Source of the DNA: Romeriopsis navalis LEGE 11480
GTDB lineage: Bacteria > Cyanobacteriota > Cyanobacteriia > Leptolyngbyales > Leptolyngbyaceae
DNA length: 39,173 nt
Direction of reading: 5' to 3'
NCBI RefSeq assembly: GCF_015207035.1
Contig: NZ_JADEXQ010000059.1
Location: 1 to 39,173 of the forward strand
How positions within the stretch are numbered: the stretch's first letter is position 1; each line of letters opens with the position of its first letter. This document shows, piece after piece, positions 3,173-21,044 of this stretch. The translations under genes were made by a program, and so were the position numbers. The notes beneath the pieces were generated by a model. It was not told the DNA's origin. It did no database searches and saw only the letters and a program-made list of their open reading frames with translations.

Positions 3173-3706
3173 TTACCGATCGTCCCAGTTGCCACTGACG
3201 ATTGGCTTACCCTTGAGGCGCTGTGCTTGATCCGAAGTCATGATGTAGGCCCAAGCAGCCATCAGGGGTCGGCGATCGGGTTGATAGGTGGGAACTTTGA
3301 CCCGGCGATAGTTCACGGTTGCCAGCGGAATGTCGGGATAGAACTGGGCCATTTCTGCTGGATCGTGCTGCTCATAATCATCGAGGTGAGACAGAACATC
3401 AGGGTGGTCGAACTGAATGACGTAGCCCTGGACAATTGCTTGGTGCCGCGCTGCAAGGGGCTGATCTGGTGCCGCTGGGGTGAGCTGGTTCTGACCATCG
3501 AGCACCATGACCGGGTAGCCGATCGCTAAGTCATATAGTGTGCCCGCGACAATCGCCGCGTGACATTTATGGGGCCACGGTTTGCAGAAGGTATCATAGG
3601 CCGCATGGCCCGGTTTGAGTGTGCCGTAGACAAAGACTTGAGTCGTCATTGGGACGTCATTGGGGCCAGATGCCAAGGGTGCAAAGGATGGGTTTAATTC
3701 TGCCAT
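3173..3706 (-). CDS. Gamma-glutamylcyclotransferase-like (AIG2/GGCT fold) protein
   Basis: Protein of 177 residues with the GGCT/AIG2 signature FVYGTLKPGH at about 25-34 and the family acidic segment LDDYEQHDP at about 111-119, which supplies the catalytic Glu. Members act on gamma-glutamyl peptides or related amides, releasing 5-oxoproline; the exact substrate is not predictable. The start at 3706 leaves only 3 nt after the stop of the upstream glycosyltransferase gene, so the two are probably co-transcribed and translationally coupled. An alternative ATG at 3649, right before the conserved TTQVFVYG, would remove 19 poorly conserved residues. A short repeat (GTCATTGGG twice) lies around that internal start. 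Confidence 0.85.
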   Translation of the reverse strand: MAELNPSFAPLASGPNDVPMTTQVFVYGTLKPGHAAYDTFCKPWPHKCHAAIVAGTLYDLAIGYPVMVLDGQNQLTPAAPDQPLAARHQAIVQGYVIQFDHPDVLSHLDDYEQHDPAEMAQFYPDIPLATVNYRRVKVPTYQPDRRPLMAAWAYIMTSDQAQRLKGKPIVSGNWDDR

Positions 3707-11529: not shown

Positions 11530-12105
11530 CTATTGGCCTTCAGACCAGGCACCCTTCGCCGACTTTCCACCGGAGGCCGTCTTAGAAACCACCACTACCG
11601 GCTCATCCAAAGATACCAGCAAACCCGCCGTCATATTTTCTTCCGCTGGCAGCGGTGCTACCCGCTCCAGGCTATCGCCAGAATTGCGAGCCATCTGGGG
11701 CACTGGACCATTGTTGATCGCCGTAACGCCTACAACCGTGGCGACTACTGCCGCTGCTGCGGCCGCTGCACCGCCCATAATCACCCGGAAGCGGGAGCGC
11801 CGTTCGACCTTCTCAAATACCTTATCGATCGTCATCTCAACCGGCTGTACCGGCTCTGGTGTTGGCATGGCTCCGAAGCCATGCTTGAGCGCCAACAAGC
11901 GTTGATGCATTTGTTGCACCTTCGGCTCGTCCGCTAGCCATGATTCAACCAGGCGACGCTCATCGGCTGTCACCTCGCCATCCATATAAGCACTGAGCAA
12001 CTCGAAGCGTTCGTTGCTGCTGCGACGCTCATCCGGTCCTGGACTGAAATTCGGCTGATTAGTGGGGTTCATGGCTGAATCCGAAGAATCAAATGGAGCA
12101 TTCAT
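11530..12105 (-). CDS. Membrane-anchored anti-sigma factor, partner of the upstream ECF sigma factor
   Basis: Protein of 191 residues that should hold the co-encoded ECF sigma factor inactive at the membrane. The N-terminal part (about 30-80) has the anti-sigma fold pattern (ELLSAYMDGEVTADERRLVE) seen in RseA/ChrR-like factors, without the HxxxCxxC zinc motif. One transmembrane helix, Ala/Val-rich, lies around 118-140. About 50 residues follow outside, with no enzymatic motif. The gene is 81 nt downstream of the sigma gene on the same strand, the usual sigma/anti-sigma operon. By order and partner type it corresponds to the SigG/SapG pair of Synechocystis, although this factor is poorly conserved. 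Confidence 0.85.
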   Translation of the reverse strand: MNAPFDSSDSAMNPTNQPNFSPGPDERRSSNERFELLSAYMDGEVTADERRLVESWLADEPKVQQMHQRLLALKHGFGAMPTPEPVQPVEMTIDKVFEKVERRSRFRVIMGGAAAAAAAVVATVVGVTAINNGPVPQMARNSGDSLERVAPLPAEENMTAGLLVSLDEPVVVVSKTASGGKSAKGAWSEGQ

Positions 12106-13962: not shown

Positions 13963-14826
13963 TTAACGACGTAGGGGACGCCCTGATGTCGCGAGTTCTT
14001 TTGTAATTATGTCAACGCCGGACTCGGGAGCCGTGAAAATTGGCCGTTGGGGCACCGGACGCTGCAATAGCTGCTTGGTGGCCAACCAGATAAACGGTGG
14101 GATGGTCTTGCTGTAGCGTTTCCACAAACGGCGCGGCTCCTGGACTAGGCGATACAACCATTCAAGTCCTGACGATCGAATGAATTCCGGTGCCCGCTGC
14201 TGTAATCCGGCATAGAGCGGAAAGACGCCCCCGACTCCGAGCATCACCGCCTGAATCTGATTGTGGTAGGCCGCCATCCATTTTTCTTGCTTCGGACAAC
14301 CGAGGGCAACAAACACGATGCTGGCACCACTCTGATTTACTTTCTCGACTACCTCTGTATCGACCGTAAGCGGGAACGACAACATCGGTAGTGGGTCCAT
14401 CCCTGCGACTTGCAGTTGGGGGAACTCCCGCTGGAGCCGGTAGCGCATTTGATCCAGCACGCGCTGCTCAGAACCGAGGAAATAAACGCTCAGCCCCTGC
14501 TCACTGGCTTGCTGACAAACGGCTTGCATCAAGTCCATGCCCGCGACCCGCTCTTGCTGGGTTTTGCGGAGCAAGCGCACCATCCAAACTAGCGGCATTC
14601 CGTCCGGCGTAACCAAATCTGCGCCGTGCAAGATATTCGCTAGGCTTTGATCCCAAGACGCTTCTACCAGCATGTGGACATTCGCCACACAAACGACTTT
14701 ACTCAGTCCACCTTGCGCCCAACGAATCACCTGTTGTACCTGAGCCTCAAACGGGACAGCGGTGACGGGGAAGCCGATGACGTTTTGCGATGGTAGAGAA
14801 GAAGTAACGGTCATAGAAACCAACAC
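13963..14826 (-). CDS. WecB/TagA/CpsF family glycosyltransferase (GT26)
   Basis: Transferase that adds N-acetylmannosamine or a related sugar to a lipid-linked precursor in surface polysaccharide synthesis. The 287-residue protein has the family landmarks in order: NVHMLVEA, GADLVTPDGMPLVW (catalytic Asp region), VYFLGSEQRVL, VFVALGCPKQEKWM, and GVGGVFPLYAG followed by RAPEFIRSSGLEWLYRL. The C-terminal ~50 residues (LWKRYSKTIPPFIWLATKQLL) look amphipathic and membrane-associated, as in TagA. Other polysaccharide genes lie at 1.7-4.5 kb, but this one stands alone with long non-coding flanks. Exact donor and acceptor are not predictable. Confidence 0.93.
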   Translation of the reverse strand: MLVSMTVTSSLPSQNVIGFPVTAVPFEAQVQQVIRWAQGGLSKVVCVANVHMLVEASWDQSLANILHGADLVTPDGMPLVWMVRLLRKTQQERVAGMDLMQAVCQQASEQGLSVYFLGSEQRVLDQMRYRLQREFPQLQVAGMDPLPMLSFPLTVDTEVVEKVNQSGASIVFVALGCPKQEKWMAAYHNQIQAVMLGVGGVFPLYAGLQQRAPEFIRSSGLEWLYRLVQEPRRLWKRYSKTIPPFIWLATKQLLQRPVPQRPIFTAPESGVDIITKELATSGRPLRR

Positions 14827-16320: not shown

Positions 16321-17922
16321 ATGTCGCTTATTTGGTTTTCTCTAATTCTTATTTTGACCGCCGCACTCATGTATATCGTGATTGCGCGTCAAGTCAAAAA
16401 GCTGACACGGACGCCAGTATGGCAGCTGTGGTTGGTACTGATGGCCCCAATTGTTTGCTTGGTGCTATGGCGGATCCTGAGCGGTGGCCGGATGTTGCCG
16501 CCCTTTGTTTTTCTGTTCCTCCTGATCGTCAGTTTCTTTTTCTATGCCAGTTTGATTGAGCGGGGCCGGATTCAACGATCGATTGATCCCGACACCAAAC
16601 CCGACTCGACCGATGAGCCATTAGCGCCCCGTGCTCCAGATACCGATGCCGATCCGGCGGCAGCACTGAAAAAGGATGCATCATCGGCGCAATCGATCCC
16701 CGAACCCACGACTTCTGAGCCGGTGCAAGTGCCATCGAAGGAAGTTGTGCGCCCCCTGACGGATGAAGAGGAGAAACGACTGCGGGACTGTTTTCCTTGG
16801 TCAACCTATTACGTCCAGAATTTTGAATATCGCCCCCAAGCGGTGATTTGTTGGGGGCAATTACGTGCCCCCGCGGAGATGGCCTATAAGAAAATCACGG
16901 CGAATGTGCGGGCCGAATTTGGCGATCGGTTTTTAGTGCTCCTCCAAGAAGGTCAAAAGCGCAAACCGATTTTTGCGATCGTCACGAATCCCCAGGTAAC
17001 CCCTGAAGGCCAAATTCTCCAGAAAACCCTGGATAAACCAAGTTGGGGGATTGCCCTGGCGCTCTTGAGCTTTGTGACGACAACTTGGGCGGGCTATGAA
17101 ATTGTCAAAGTCTTGCCGGACGCACTGAAATCCGGCAGTCCGAATATTTGGGATGGGTTGCCCTATGCCTGTGCTTGGATGGGCTTTTTTGGCGTACGGG
17201 AGTTGGGCTACTACTTAACTGCGCGGCGCTATCGTGTACCGGTGACGTTGCCTTACTTTATTCCGTTGCCACCGTTGCCATCGCTGCCGATCGGGACGTT
17301 GGGTGCGTTTATTCAGCTGCGATCGCCTGTACCGAACCGGCAAGTGCTGTTTGATATTCGAGCCGTGGGATCGCTATTTGGGTTGTTTGTGGCGATCATT
17401 CTGTTGGCGGTGGGTTTAACTCAGTCAACGGTGGTGGATGTGGTCAAAGATGCGACCCCGAGTATTTTTGATTTTGAAGGTTTAAGGCCGCAGTTTTCGT
17501 TGATGTTGGCTTGCTTGAGTAAGTGGGCTTTAGGCGGTCAGCTGACGGCTGATAAATTAATTGCCTTGCATCCGATTGCCTTTGCCGGTTGGCTCGGGGT
17601 GTTATTTTCTGCCTTTAACTTAATGCCGATCGGGTCCCTCGATGGCGGGCGGATTGTCCATGCCGTCTATGGTCAACGGGTGGGCGCAATTATTGGCAAT
17701 GTTGCCCGGTGGTTGTTGCTGGCGTTGGCCATGACCCAGAGTCATCTGTTGCTCTGGGCGTTGCTGCTGTTTCTGTTGCCAACCATGGATGAACCGGCAC
17801 TGAATGATGTGACCGAGTTGAACGGTTGGCGTGACTTTACAGGGCTTGTCATGCTGGCGGTACTGCTATTGATCATCATGCCTGCCCCTGCCTCGCTCAT
17901 GGCTTGGTTAGGCTTGGCTTAA
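16321..17922 (+). CDS. Site-2 protease (M50) family membrane protein, predicted catalytically inactive
   Basis: Polytopic protein of 533 residues from the ATG at 16321; a TTG at 16285 would add 12 residues. Two N-terminal helices are followed by a Pro/Asp/Glu-rich linker (about 90-155). A soluble domain (DCFPWSTYYV to FAIVTNPQVTP) resembles the N-domain of cyanobacterial/plant EGY-type S2P proteins. The membrane core contains PYFIPLPPLPSLPIGTLGAF and NLMPIGSLDGGRI, with Asp441 kept. The zinc motif HExxH is replaced by Arg293-Glu-Leu-Gly-Tyr297, so both histidines are missing, as in the plant pseudo-protease EGY3. It is probably a regulatory or chaperone-like pseudo-protease (inference). The 3' end overlaps a 20-bp tandem repeat. 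Confidence 0.9.
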   Translation: MSLIWFSLILILTAALMYIVIARQVKKLTRTPVWQLWLVLMAPIVCLVLWRILSGGRMLPPFVFLFLLIVSFFFYASLIERGRIQRSIDPDTKPDSTDEPLAPRAPDTDADPAAALKKDASSAQSIPEPTTSEPVQVPSKEVVRPLTDEEEKRLRDCFPWSTYYVQNFEYRPQAVICWGQLRAPAEMAYKKITANVRAEFGDRFLVLLQEGQKRKPIFAIVTNPQVTPEGQILQKTLDKPSWGIALALLSFVTTTWAGYEIVKVLPDALKSGSPNIWDGLPYACAWMGFFGVRELGYYLTARRYRVPVTLPYFIPLPPLPSLPIGTLGAFIQLRSPVPNRQVLFDIRAVGSLFGLFVAIILLAVGLTQSTVVDVVKDATPSIFDFEGLRPQFSLMLACLSKWALGGQLTADKLIALHPIAFAGWLGVLFSAFNLMPIGSLDGGRIVHAVYGQRVGAIIGNVARWLLLALAMTQSHLLLWALLLFLLPTMDEPALNDVTELNGWRDFTGLVMLAVLLLIIMPAPASLMAWLGLA

Positions 17923-17970
17923 TTTGATACGGCTTCGCTTGATTAGATGCGGTCTAGCTTGAGGCGATTG
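17911..17970. repeat. Three imperfect 20-bp tandem units spanning the stop codon of the S2P-like gene
   Basis: Units at 17911-17930, 17931-17950 and 17951-17970 share GG(C/T)(T)TxGCTTxA-type sequence. The stop codon TAA (17920-17922) lies inside the first unit. Units two and three are progressively diverged. Confidence 0.75.
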
Positions 17971-18060
17971 GGCCTGATAATGTTGAGCTGGCTGCTGCTT
18001 TAGCGGGGGAGGTTTAGCTCGAAACAATACTGTGAATTATCGAATTTGGCTGAGAAACGA

Positions 18061-19473
18061 ATGGATACCAGAGTTTTGCGTCAGACCGTGGGATCGTTGC
18101 TGCTCTACAGCAATGTTTTAGAACAGCCCCCCATGCAGCATTGGGTGCAGTTATTGGAGCATCTGAGCCGATTGAACCAGGCGATGCCCCCCGCTACGTC
18201 CCCAGCCGATCATCCCCCAACTCATACGCCAATCGCCGATGTGTGCCAGACGGGCATTCTCCAGACCTATGGCCAGTGGTTTCAAGCCTTAGCCGCGGCC
18301 CCCCAAGGCTGGCAGGATTATTTATTTACAGCTTTAATCACCACCGCTACGCCATTTTCGGAGCAGGTTCAGACTAAGAATTGGGATGATTTACCGGCGG
18401 CAATGCAGTTAGCTGTCCGCCACGATCTGCATATCTTGCAGCAAATTTACCAATGGAATTGCGAAGCGATCTTTCAGGCTGTGCATCAGGCCGTGCCCGA
18501 TGTCCCGATCGTCAGTTGGGTCGATCGCTTAGACCCGGCACTGCTCCCAACGGCTCAGGGTCATGCGGCATCACATTTACGCTCGCAGTTGGAACATTTC
18601 AATGATTGGGCCGATGCGATCCCACAGCTCGTGGATTATTACCGGCAGTTTGGCACAGGCATCTTTGCACAGTACCAGGCGTTGCGCTGGAGCGATGGTG
18701 ATCTACAGGGCATTGAACAACCGGATCCCATTTGCCTCGAAAATTTGGTGGGTTATGACTGGCAGCAACAATCCTTAGTGCAAAATACCCAAGCCTTATT
18801 AGCCGGGTATCCCGCCCTCAATGTGTTGCTCTACGGCAGCCGGGGCAGCGGCAAATCGTCGTTGATCAAGGCCCTAGTTAATCAATTTGGGGATGCCGGA
18901 CTGCGCTTAATTGAAGTATCAAAGGCAAGTTTGGGGGATTTGCCCAATATCGTGGAACAGCTGCGATCGTGCCCCCAGAAATTCATCATTTTTGTCGATG
19001 ATTTGTCCTTTGAAGAAGATGACGACGCCTTTAAATCCTTAAAAGTCGTACTGGAAGGCGGGGTGACGGCCCGGCCTGACAATGTTGTGGTTTATGCCAC
19101 GTCCAATCGCCGCCATCTGATCCGGGAATTCTATGGCGATCGGCCCCAGCCGAAAGATGCCGATGAGATTCATCAGTGGGACACATTGCAGGAGAAGATG
19201 TCCTTTAGCGATCGGTTTGGCCTCACACTGACCTTTGAACCAGCGGCGCAACCCACTTATCTCCAAATCGTGCAGCATTTGGCCCAAGCCGCACGCTTAG
19301 TGATTAGCGATGCCGATCTAGAGTTTCGGGCGTTGCAATGGGCCACACAACATAACGGTCGCTCCGGGCGATCGGCACGGCAGTTTATTGATTATTTGAC
19401 CGCGGACTTGGCCTTAAACCCAGACTCAGAGTTAAACGCAGATTCAGGGTTAAACCAAGTGACGCAGCAATAA
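18061..19473 (+). CDS. DUF815 AAA+ ATPase
   Basis: Cytoplasmic ATPase of about 470 residues from the ATG at 18061; a TTG at 18046 would add five. The N-terminal ~235 residues are helical and Gln/His-rich with no known motif. The C-terminal AAA+ module has Walker A YGSRGSGKSS, Walker B IIFVDDLSFE and sensor-1 YATSNRRHLI, followed by the lid region with SGRSARQFIDYL. This arrangement is DUF815, an AAA+ family common in bacteria with no settled function. The last residues (LNPDSE LNADSG LNQVTQQ) come from an in-frame 18-bp tandem repeat. The DHNA-CoA hydrolase gene follows closely on the same strand and may be co-transcribed. Confidence 0.9.
   Translation: MDTRVLRQTVGSLLLYSNVLEQPPMQHWVQLLEHLSRLNQAMPPATSPADHPPTHTPIADVCQTGILQTYGQWFQALAAAPQGWQDYLFTALITTATPFSEQVQTKNWDDLPAAMQLAVRHDLHILQQIYQWNCEAIFQAVHQAVPDVPIVSWVDRLDPALLPTAQGHAASHLRSQLEHFNDWADAIPQLVDYYRQFGTGIFAQYQALRWSDGDLQGIEQPDPICLENLVGYDWQQQSLVQNTQALLAGYPALNVLLYGSRGSGKSSLIKALVNQFGDAGLRLIEVSKASLGDLPNIVEQLRSCPQKFIIFVDDLSFEEDDDAFKSLKVVLEGGVTARPDNVVVYATSNRRHLIREFYGDRPQPKDADEIHQWDTLQEKMSFSDRFGLTLTFEPAAQPTYLQIVQHLAQAARLVISDADLEFRALQWATQHNGRSGRSARQFIDYLTADLALNPDSELNADSGLNQVTQQ
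19414..19467 (+). repeat. 18-bp in-frame tandem repeat at the 3' end of the DUF815 gene
   Basis: Three units beginning TTAAAC (19414, 19432, 19450) encode LNPDSE, LNADSG and LNQVTQ. The repeat forms the C-terminal tail right before the stop codon. Confidence 0.85.
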
Positions 19474-19481
19474 AGCGATAC

Positions 19482-19532
19482 AGCTATGACATTCATCGAG
19501 CTATGACATTCATCAAGCCATGACATTTATTT
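19482..19532 (+). promoter_or_regulatory. Three 17-bp tandem repeats forming two stop-start-coupled mini-ORFs before the thioesterase gene
   Basis: Units at 19482-19498, 19499-19515 and 19516-19532 each contain AGC(T/C)ATGACATT. The ATG at 19486 opens MTFIEL and ends at TGA 19504-19506, overlapping the next ATG (19503) as ATGA. The ATG at 19503 opens MTFIKP and ends at TGA 19521-19523, overlapping the ATG at 19520, which is the start of the thioesterase (MTFIYQ). Because 17 is one less than six codons, the overlap arises in every unit. The third unit is the true gene start. Confidence 0.85.
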
Positions 19533-19933
19533 ATCAGCGCACCGTGCGATTTGGCGATACAGATGCGGCGGGGGTCGTGTACTTCGCAAATGTTCTATCC
19601 ATCTGCCATGAAGCCTACGAGGCGGCCTTGATCAATCTTGGGGTGGATGCCCGATCGTTTTTCCGGGGTGAGGAACTCGCGGTGCCGATCGTCCATGGGG
19701 AAGTGGATTTTCATCGCCCGATGCGCTGCGGCGATCAATTGCACATCCGCGTTTTACCCGTGATGACCACAGCGAGTGAATTTGAAATCCGGTATGAGGT
19801 GTTAATTGAAGGGTTCGATCGGCCAGTTAGTCGGGCCTTAACGCGGCATGTTTGTATTGATGTACAGACCCGCAAACGCATTTTGATTCCGGCAATGCTG
19901 AAGCAGTGGATTGAGGCTGAAGCAGTGGATTAA
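19520..19933 (+). CDS. 1,4-dihydroxy-2-naphthoyl-CoA hydrolase (hotdog thioesterase)
   Basis: Releases 1,4-dihydroxy-2-naphthoate from its CoA ester, a late step in the naphthoquinone ring of phylloquinone (vitamin K1), the photosystem I cofactor. The 137-residue single hotdog domain shows VRFGDTDAAGVVYFANV at 9-25, with the catalytic Asp at about 15, as in the Synechocystis enzyme of similar length. It continues with HEAYEAALINLGVD. The start at 19520 is the third of three near-identical ATG contexts. The C-terminus ends inside a 19-bp tandem duplication that shifts frame and supplies the stop codon, so the last residues (EAEAVD) are probably recent. Other 4-hydroxybenzoyl-CoA-type thioesterases are similar, but the cyanobacterial pattern favours DHNA-CoA. 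Confidence 0.88.
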   Translation: MTFIYQRTVRFGDTDAAGVVYFANVLSICHEAYEAALINLGVDARSFFRGEELAVPIVHGEVDFHRPMRCGDQLHIRVLPVMTTASEFEIRYEVLIEGFDRPVSRALTRHVCIDVQTRKRILIPAMLKQWIEAEAVD

Positions 19934-19934
19934 T
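19897..19934. repeat. 19-bp tandem duplication across the thioesterase stop codon
   Basis: GCTGAAGCAGTGGATTGAG (19897-19915) and GCTGAAGCAGTGGATTAAT (19916-19934). The period is not a multiple of three, so the second copy is read in another frame and gives the TAA stop at 19931-19933. Confidence 0.9.
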
Positions 19935-20049
19935 CACAAAAATTTGAGCATCCACCGCAGCCCCAAGGCATCAAGCCCAATAAACAAAGCACAGTAAAAC
20001 TTAAACCCGCCAATTCAGCTCAAAAATCTGACTTTCATCTTATGAGTCA

Positions 20050-20085
20050 GTGAGCGCTTTTGAACAGGTGAGCGCTTTCGAAATT
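20050..20085. repeat. 18-bp direct repeat between convergent genes
   Basis: GTGAGCGCTTTTGAACAG (20050-20067) and GTGAGCGCTTTCGAAATT (20068-20085). It lies in the 187-bp spacer between the thioesterase and the minus-strand lipoprotein gene. No clear terminator was seen in this spacer. Confidence 0.75.
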
Positions 20086-20120
20086 TCTAAGCAGGCGACA
20101 GCCATAGCAAAGATATCGCC

Positions 20121-21044
20121 TTACAGACCAAGCTCACGCCCCAGAATGGCCAGTGCGGACTGCGCACTGCTCAGGTGATCGCCGGGAAACTCATGGGTCT
20201 TCGCCCCTTTTTGCTTCAGAAAGTCGCGTTCGGCGGGGGAAAGTTGCCCCACCTGCTCGTCTTGCAAACTATAGGCATAGTGCACATTGGCCAGATCAAC
20301 ATCTCGGAGTAACGTTGTATAACGCTTATAGGCAAGGCCAGCCGCGAGGCGCATCATGTTCCGATCGGCAATGTCATTACCGCCGCCCATCCCGGCCGCG
20401 TCCAAAGACACTTCGACCACTTTCGTGCCATCCACAAAGCCCACGGGATTGCCGTTGGCAAATTTGCGCCACACGATCGCTGGCATATCTAGCCGTCCCA
20501 CCAACATCACATAGGCATCGGCAGTATTGCCATATTCGGCTAATAGATCCGCCGTCACAAATGCACCATAGGATAGGCCCAATACGATGACACGCCGATC
20601 CATCGCTTTAAAGGCTTTAACCGTTGCAGCCAGGTTCTGAGTCGATTGACTCGCATACTGCTTCGCCTGCTCAAACGTCACATCTTGCGTATCGAAGATG
20701 GCAGGATTTTGGGTCTGGACCTGATGCGGCACCACATAAAAATGCTTGTTTCCGTAGGTCTGAGCGAGATGCGCCAGCACAACGGTATCAGGCTGGTTTA
20801 ATGGCCCACCTTGGGCATATACCACAACCGTTTTGGCCTTTGGATCACCGGCAGTCGCGGCCAGTATCGCATTGATATCCGTTTTAGCCGCAGGCTCAAC
20901 GGTCGTGACTGCAGGCTTTGGGGTTGTGTCGGGAAGCGGATCCCGGACCTTGGCCGGACAGCCGCTCAACAGCATTAAGGCACTCAAAGCCATGCCACCC
21001 AGACAGATGGGAAAAAACAATGTGGAGAAGTTTCGATCTTGCAT
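20121..21044 (-). CDS. Lipoprotein with alpha/beta-hydrolase fold
   Basis: Predicted membrane-anchored lipoprotein of 307 residues from the ATG at 21044; an upstream ATG at 21107 would add 21 residues ahead of the signal and is less likely. The signal has a hydrophobic core ending in lipobox LLSGC, with Cys29 as the lipidated residue. A Pro/Thr-rich linker follows. The hydrolase domain has GLSYG with nucleophile Ser158, a strand KTVVVYAQGGPLN before it that may form the oxyanion loop, and a late GDHLSS that supplies the likely catalytic His. Substrate unknown. The upstream phosphohexomutase gene is separated from it by a strong hairpin. Confidence 0.78.
   Translation of the reverse strand: MQDRNFSTLFFPICLGGMALSALMLLSGCPAKVRDPLPDTTPKPAVTTVEPAAKTDINAILAATAGDPKAKTVVVYAQGGPLNQPDTVVLAHLAQTYGNKHFYVVPHQVQTQNPAIFDTQDVTFEQAKQYASQSTQNLAATVKAFKAMDRRVIVLGLSYGAFVTADLLAEYGNTADAYVMLVGRLDMPAIVWRKFANGNPVGFVDGTKVVEVSLDAAGMGGGNDIADRNMMRLAAGLAYKRYTTLLRDVDLANVHYAYSLQDEQVGQLSPAERDFLKQKGAKTHEFPGDHLSSAQSALAILGRELGL

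Follow-up and report, generated by a model that had tools for sequence, protein, structure and literature searches.

We found that the gene for a probable 1,4-dihydroxy-2-naphthoyl-CoA (DHNA-CoA) hydrolase, an enzyme of the vitamin K pathway, of Romeriopsis navalis LEGE 11480 is preceded by two tandem copies of its own start-codon region, each of which forms a six-codon mini-ORF whose TGA stop overlaps the next ATG in a 4-nt ATGA. The array lies in the window analysed here, i.e., the whole 39,173-nucleotide stretch of DNA whose numbering is used throughout. It is no chance resemblance, and tandem duplications of its class are numerous in the genome. Most likely, it arose by stepwise, neutral 17-bp duplication of the gene's own start in this lineage, where it was tolerated and perhaps kept part of the translational coupling to the gene upstream.

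Anatomy of the array and its neighboring genes

The features of the locus, with the evidence for each, are:

18046–19473, + strand: DUF815 AAA-type ATPase gene, TAA stop at 19471–19473 (Pfam PF05673, E = 2.7e-96; directly before the hydrolase gene in nine relatives); the coordinates follow the longest ORF listed, which has a TTG start
19414–19456, + strand: 18-bp degenerate tandem array within the DUF815 3′ end, LNPDSE-LNADSG-LN..., frame kept (TRF)
19482–19532, + strand: 17-bp tandem array of three units, two near-identical ones plus the gene's own start (sequence, TRF, unit comparison, motif count)
19486–19506, + strand: mini-ORF 1, MTFIEL*, TGA at 19504–19506 overlapping the ATG at 19503 (sequence read directly)
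19503–19523, + strand: mini-ORF 2, MTFIKP*, TGA at 19521–19523 overlapping the ATG at 19520 (sequence read directly)
19520–19933, + strand: hotdog-fold thioesterase gene, probable DHNA-CoA hydrolase (ORF, Pfam, structure match, homologous N-termini)

Read directly from the sequence, the units at 19482, 19499, and 19516 are AGCT-ATGACATTCATCG, AGCT-ATGACATTCATCA, and AGCC-ATGACATTTATTT, and the full 17-bp units 1, 2, and 3 are AGCTATGACATTCATCG, AGCTATGACATTCATCA, and AGCCATGACATTTATTT (19482–19532). The array thus contains three ATGs, at 19486, 19503, and 19520, the third of which opens the hydrolase gene (MTFIYQ...), and two ATGA stop/start overlaps, at 19503–19506 and 19520–19523. Mini-ORF 1 begins 12 nt past the DUF815 stop and lies in the same frame as DUF815. 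TRF recovered the array at 19482–19527 with a period of 17, 2.7 copies, and a score of 78, and its motif matched three times in the window as compared to 0.21 expected, a count of three that was reached in 0 of 100 shuffles. Strong matches to the unit were absent elsewhere in the genome, where we found only single-copy, one-mismatch matches away from the locus.

The original prediction had described three 17-bp units, the peptides MTFIEL and MTFIKP, and the ATGA overlaps, all of which proved correct to the base on re-reading. Its arithmetic, whereby each extra 17-bp unit adds a new stop-start-coupled ORF, is right as well: Each copy is a six-codon ORF with its TGA over the next ATG because the gene starts with ATGA and 17 equals 2 modulo 3. 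More generally, when an ATGA start is duplicated at a distance of 2 modulo 3 and no earlier stop intervenes, the copy must end on the TGA of the next start.

The hydrolase gene ends at 19933 and encodes a protein of 137 amino acids (MTFIYQRTVRFGDTD...), whose start at 19520 is backed by the homologous N-termini of relatives, for example MTFIYQRTVRFE in L004. The protein matched Pfam 4HBT_2 (E = 2e-20) and the solved structure of the Synechocystis DHNA-CoA hydrolase (4k00, E = 5.7e-24), and it reached none of the NCBIfam equivalog cut-offs (the best being TIGR02799, with 48.8 of 141.35 bits; MenI_Staph gave 25.5 of 225). By homology, then, this 4HBT thioesterase is probably a DHNA-CoA hydrolase, the label that had been proposed for it and that we consider reasonable. 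The DUF815 gene upstream has a repeat of its own, as the 18-bp array lengthens the DUF815 C-terminus directly before the 17-bp array, and the proteins of the relatives have no such tail.

The junction in relatives and a likely duplication history

In nine distinct relatives that share this gene order, counted after two pairs of rows that each duplicate one junction (L004/L032 and L022/L041) had been merged, the gap between DUF815 and the hydrolase gene measured −4, −1, 0, or +4 nt. In this genome, the gap is 46 nt, of which 34 nt are the tandem duplications themselves, and the mini-ORFs split it into steps of +12, −4, and −4 nt. The start repeat occurred in 0 of 97 other distinct orthologue starts, a set that contains no congeneric genome. 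In Escherichia coli reporters, coupling drops by 80 to 90% or entirely at a gap of 38 nt (PMC10666635), and direct coupling of the hydrolase gene to DUF815 over 46 nt is therefore unlikely.

The units themselves carry traces of the order in which they may have arisen. Units 1 and 2 are identical at 16 of 17 positions, whereas either of them matches unit 3 at 13 of 17. Such a pattern, with one difference within the pair and four between each member and unit 3, suggests two successive duplications, albeit from very few sites: the gene start would have been duplicated first, and that copy would have been duplicated later. We propose that the same process that generated the many short tandem duplications of the genome copied the start-codon region of the hydrolase gene in this stepwise manner. 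An ancestral overlap or abutment of the DUF815 stop and the hydrolase start would have widened to the present 46 nt in this lineage. The duplication may have been tolerated since the coupled mini-ORFs stop on the next start, without reading into the gene. If the two genes are cotranscribed, as we presume, ribosomes that finish DUF815 could cover the 12 nt to the first mini-ATG and from there arrive at the hydrolase start by two hops of −4 nt. Judged from the sequence, a hand-over of ribosomes via the mini-ORFs is plausible, because the relatives have a stop/start overlap at this junction and coupling would otherwise be lost over the 46 nt.

Tandem duplications across the genome and at its gene starts

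We surveyed about 2.9 Mb of the 6.47-Mb genome, with ~25 kb of this sample masked, for comparable events. TRF arrays scoring at least 78, as the present one does, numbered 51 in 1.7 Mb of real genome and 0 in 60 shuffled windows. At scores of at least 40, we counted 297 arrays in 1.7 Mb, which corresponds to 6.8 per 39 kb versus 0.75 in shuffles. Short two-copy tandem duplications in the 1.7 Mb sampled were ~9 times commoner than in shuffled sequence, and the periods of tandem repeats in this sample were centred on 11 to 21 bp outside ORFs and on multiples of 3 inside them. Among the periods in noncoding DNA that are not divisible by 3, 17 was the commonest.

Gene starts were taken from a simple codon model, which failed to call one or more real starts, including that of L146. 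At 1870 predicted starts, we observed 4 start-codon duplications, as compared to 5.5 expected from the noncoding rate. An ATGA was present at 591 of the 1597 ATG starts of this genome; the bias toward A at the fourth site is known across bacteria and has been explained as frameshift proofing (PMC5850271). When tandem duplications were simulated at the predicted ATG starts of the genome, an ATGA-coupled mini-ORF resulted in 31% of cases at a period of 17 and in 10% of cases pooled over periods of 10 to 21.

Two further loci share the layout with a 17-bp duplication and a coupled mini-ORF of six codons, in genes unrelated to the hydrolase. One, L146 (14328–14350; G000:C11, about 34328), is the start of a gene for a NarL/LuxR-type response regulator, with ATGs at 14328 and 14345 and the mini-ORF MTQTQI* ATGA-coupled to the gene. 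The other, L209 (11770–11792; G000:C14, about 51770), belongs to an AraC-family regulator gene, with ATGs at 11770 and 11787 and the mini-ORF MSKQPS* ATGA-coupled to MSKQQI.... Out-of-frame start duplications without coupling were found at L121, L132, L147, and L217. Five out-of-frame start duplications share the period of 17, but noncoding DNA favors it likewise, and we accordingly rejected 17 bp as a period special to gene starts. Coupled cases made up four of about nine listed out-of-frame start duplications versus 15.6% expected, a post hoc count with P of about 0.04 that becomes P = 0.12 without the window's own case. This excess is suggestive at most, and it leaves room for selection favoring or tolerating coupled products.

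A smaller example of the same geometry is seen elsewhere in the window, on the − strand, at a gene whose true start is uncertain given an in-frame upstream ATG at 3706 in addition to that at 3649. Here, an 11-bp tandem copy around the ATG at 3649 (window 3644–3664) creates the mini-ORF MTSQ*, ATGA-coupled to MTTQVFVYGTLK....

A general enrichment of ATGA-coupled mini-ORFs at gene starts was considered and rejected, as we counted 62 of them versus 91.5 ± 9.0 in shuffled upstream DNA. Depletion was stronger for upstream ATGs whose frames extend far into the gene (263 versus 464 in shuffles). With coupled mini-ORFs rarer than in shuffles and far-reading ATGs depleted further, a coupled mini-ORF thus looks tolerated rather than favored.

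Alternative readings and known systems

The same observations bear on whether the array does anything for the hydrolase gene. The duplicated units may have been retained by selection for passing ribosomes over the 46-nt gap after the ancestral overlap was lost, as the overlap-type junction of the nine relatives, the +12, −4, −4 division of the gap, and the published distance dependence of coupling (PMC10666635) would suggest. The published idea of short uORFs delivering ribosomes (PMC12548453) also fits, and none of the three ATGs is preceded, as judged by eye, by a Shine-Dalgarno-like sequence. We nonetheless consider such selection unlikely, because 34 nt of the gap were made by the tandem duplications themselves, coupled mini-ORFs are not enriched at the gene starts of this genome, and start duplications occur at the background rate. 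A broader version would make ATGA-start duplication a repeatable route that rebuilds coupling over widened operon gaps, with 2-modulo-3 copies surviving by virtue of their coupling and several of them present here (this locus, L146, and L209), each relaying ribosomes; this we regard as slightly more doubtful still. At the other extreme, the mini-ORFs may never be translated, with the hydrolase expressed from its own transcript or by independent initiation and the array inert. The long gap and the chance coupled mini-ORFs at many starts in the genome are in line with such inertness, whereas the co-orientation of the genes and the short gaps in relatives argue against it, as does, with little weight, the finding of no sigma-70-like promoter in positions 17900–20130 of the + strand. 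An inert array is possible, if on the whole doubtful, and it would keep the duplication origin and deny only the relay, such that its probability overlaps with that of neutral stepwise duplication.

A role in regulation fares worse. The original prediction had envisaged that repeat number tunes expression, and one may imagine attenuation or phase variation of the coupling, given that the coupling survives the addition of any further unit and that units 1 and 2, with 16 identical bases, could recombine. However, whole-unit gain or loss preserves the coupling and hence provides no on/off switch, unit 3 is divergent, and the repeat is missing from all 97 other distinct orthologue starts. By eye, MTFIEL and MTFIKP contain no run of repeated regulatory codons, and the RNA at the array showed no unusual structure (fold z = +1.27, with 181 of 200 shuffles folding at least as well). 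Taken with the counts of coupled mini-ORFs and the background rate of start duplications described above, these results leave the proposed tuning unsupported, and we judge a regulatory leader of either kind very improbable. We give even less credence to a thrice-repeated DNA- or RNA-binding site, i.e., an operator or a translational repressor site as proposed for the TAACTGA repeats (PMC4679880). While direct repeats just upstream of a start codon would suit such a site, the unit consists of the coding start of the gene itself, it recurs in the genome only as single one-mismatch matches, and a 17-bp spacing would be out of helical phase. Neutral stepwise duplication, with its neutrality judged from the rates, stays our preferred reading.

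If the relay works, an operon junction can lengthen by tandem duplication with its translational coupling kept, and natural arrays of one, two, and three starts would be at hand for measuring the efficiency of reinitiation per hop. If there is no relay, the locus calls for caution, since an ATGA start together with the repeat period modulo 3 can yield a striking stop-start cascade.

The 4-nt TGA/ATG overlap ATGA is the commonest prokaryotic overlap and supports termination-reinitiation coupling (Huber et al. 2019, PMC6728339; 2023, PMC10666635). The TGA overlaps the next ATG by 4 nt here too, but unlike in the ATGA pairs of Huber et al., the upstream ORFs have six codons, stand two in series, and originated as copies of the downstream start. 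The closest precedent is provided by the mycobacterial interspersed repetitive units (MIRUs), which, in the account of Supply et al. (1997) relayed in PMC12548453, place a small ORF at a gene start with −4-nt coupling and little disturbance of expression, and which are apparently mobile and found in many mycobacteria. As in a MIRU, the repeat ORF has −4-nt coupling to the gene that follows; in contrast to it, the 17-bp unit is a copy of the start of that very gene and is not dispersed, and it forms no MIRU-like family. The fourth-site A enrichment accounts for the many ATGA starts, which allow a duplicated start to overlap readily, although the proposal made for it (PMC5850271) concerns frameshift proofing, not coupling. 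Attenuation and other regulatory leader peptides differ from the present mini-ORFs, in which we found no alternative-structure signal or stall-prone codons. Last, the TAACTGA direct repeats, a fixed heptamer at the start codons of many genes in Beggiatoaceae and Cyanobacteria (PMC4679880), resemble the array in that some cyanobacteria carry them as short direct repeats immediately ahead of start codons, but the repeat described here is confined to a single locus and carries the start codon itself inside its unit.
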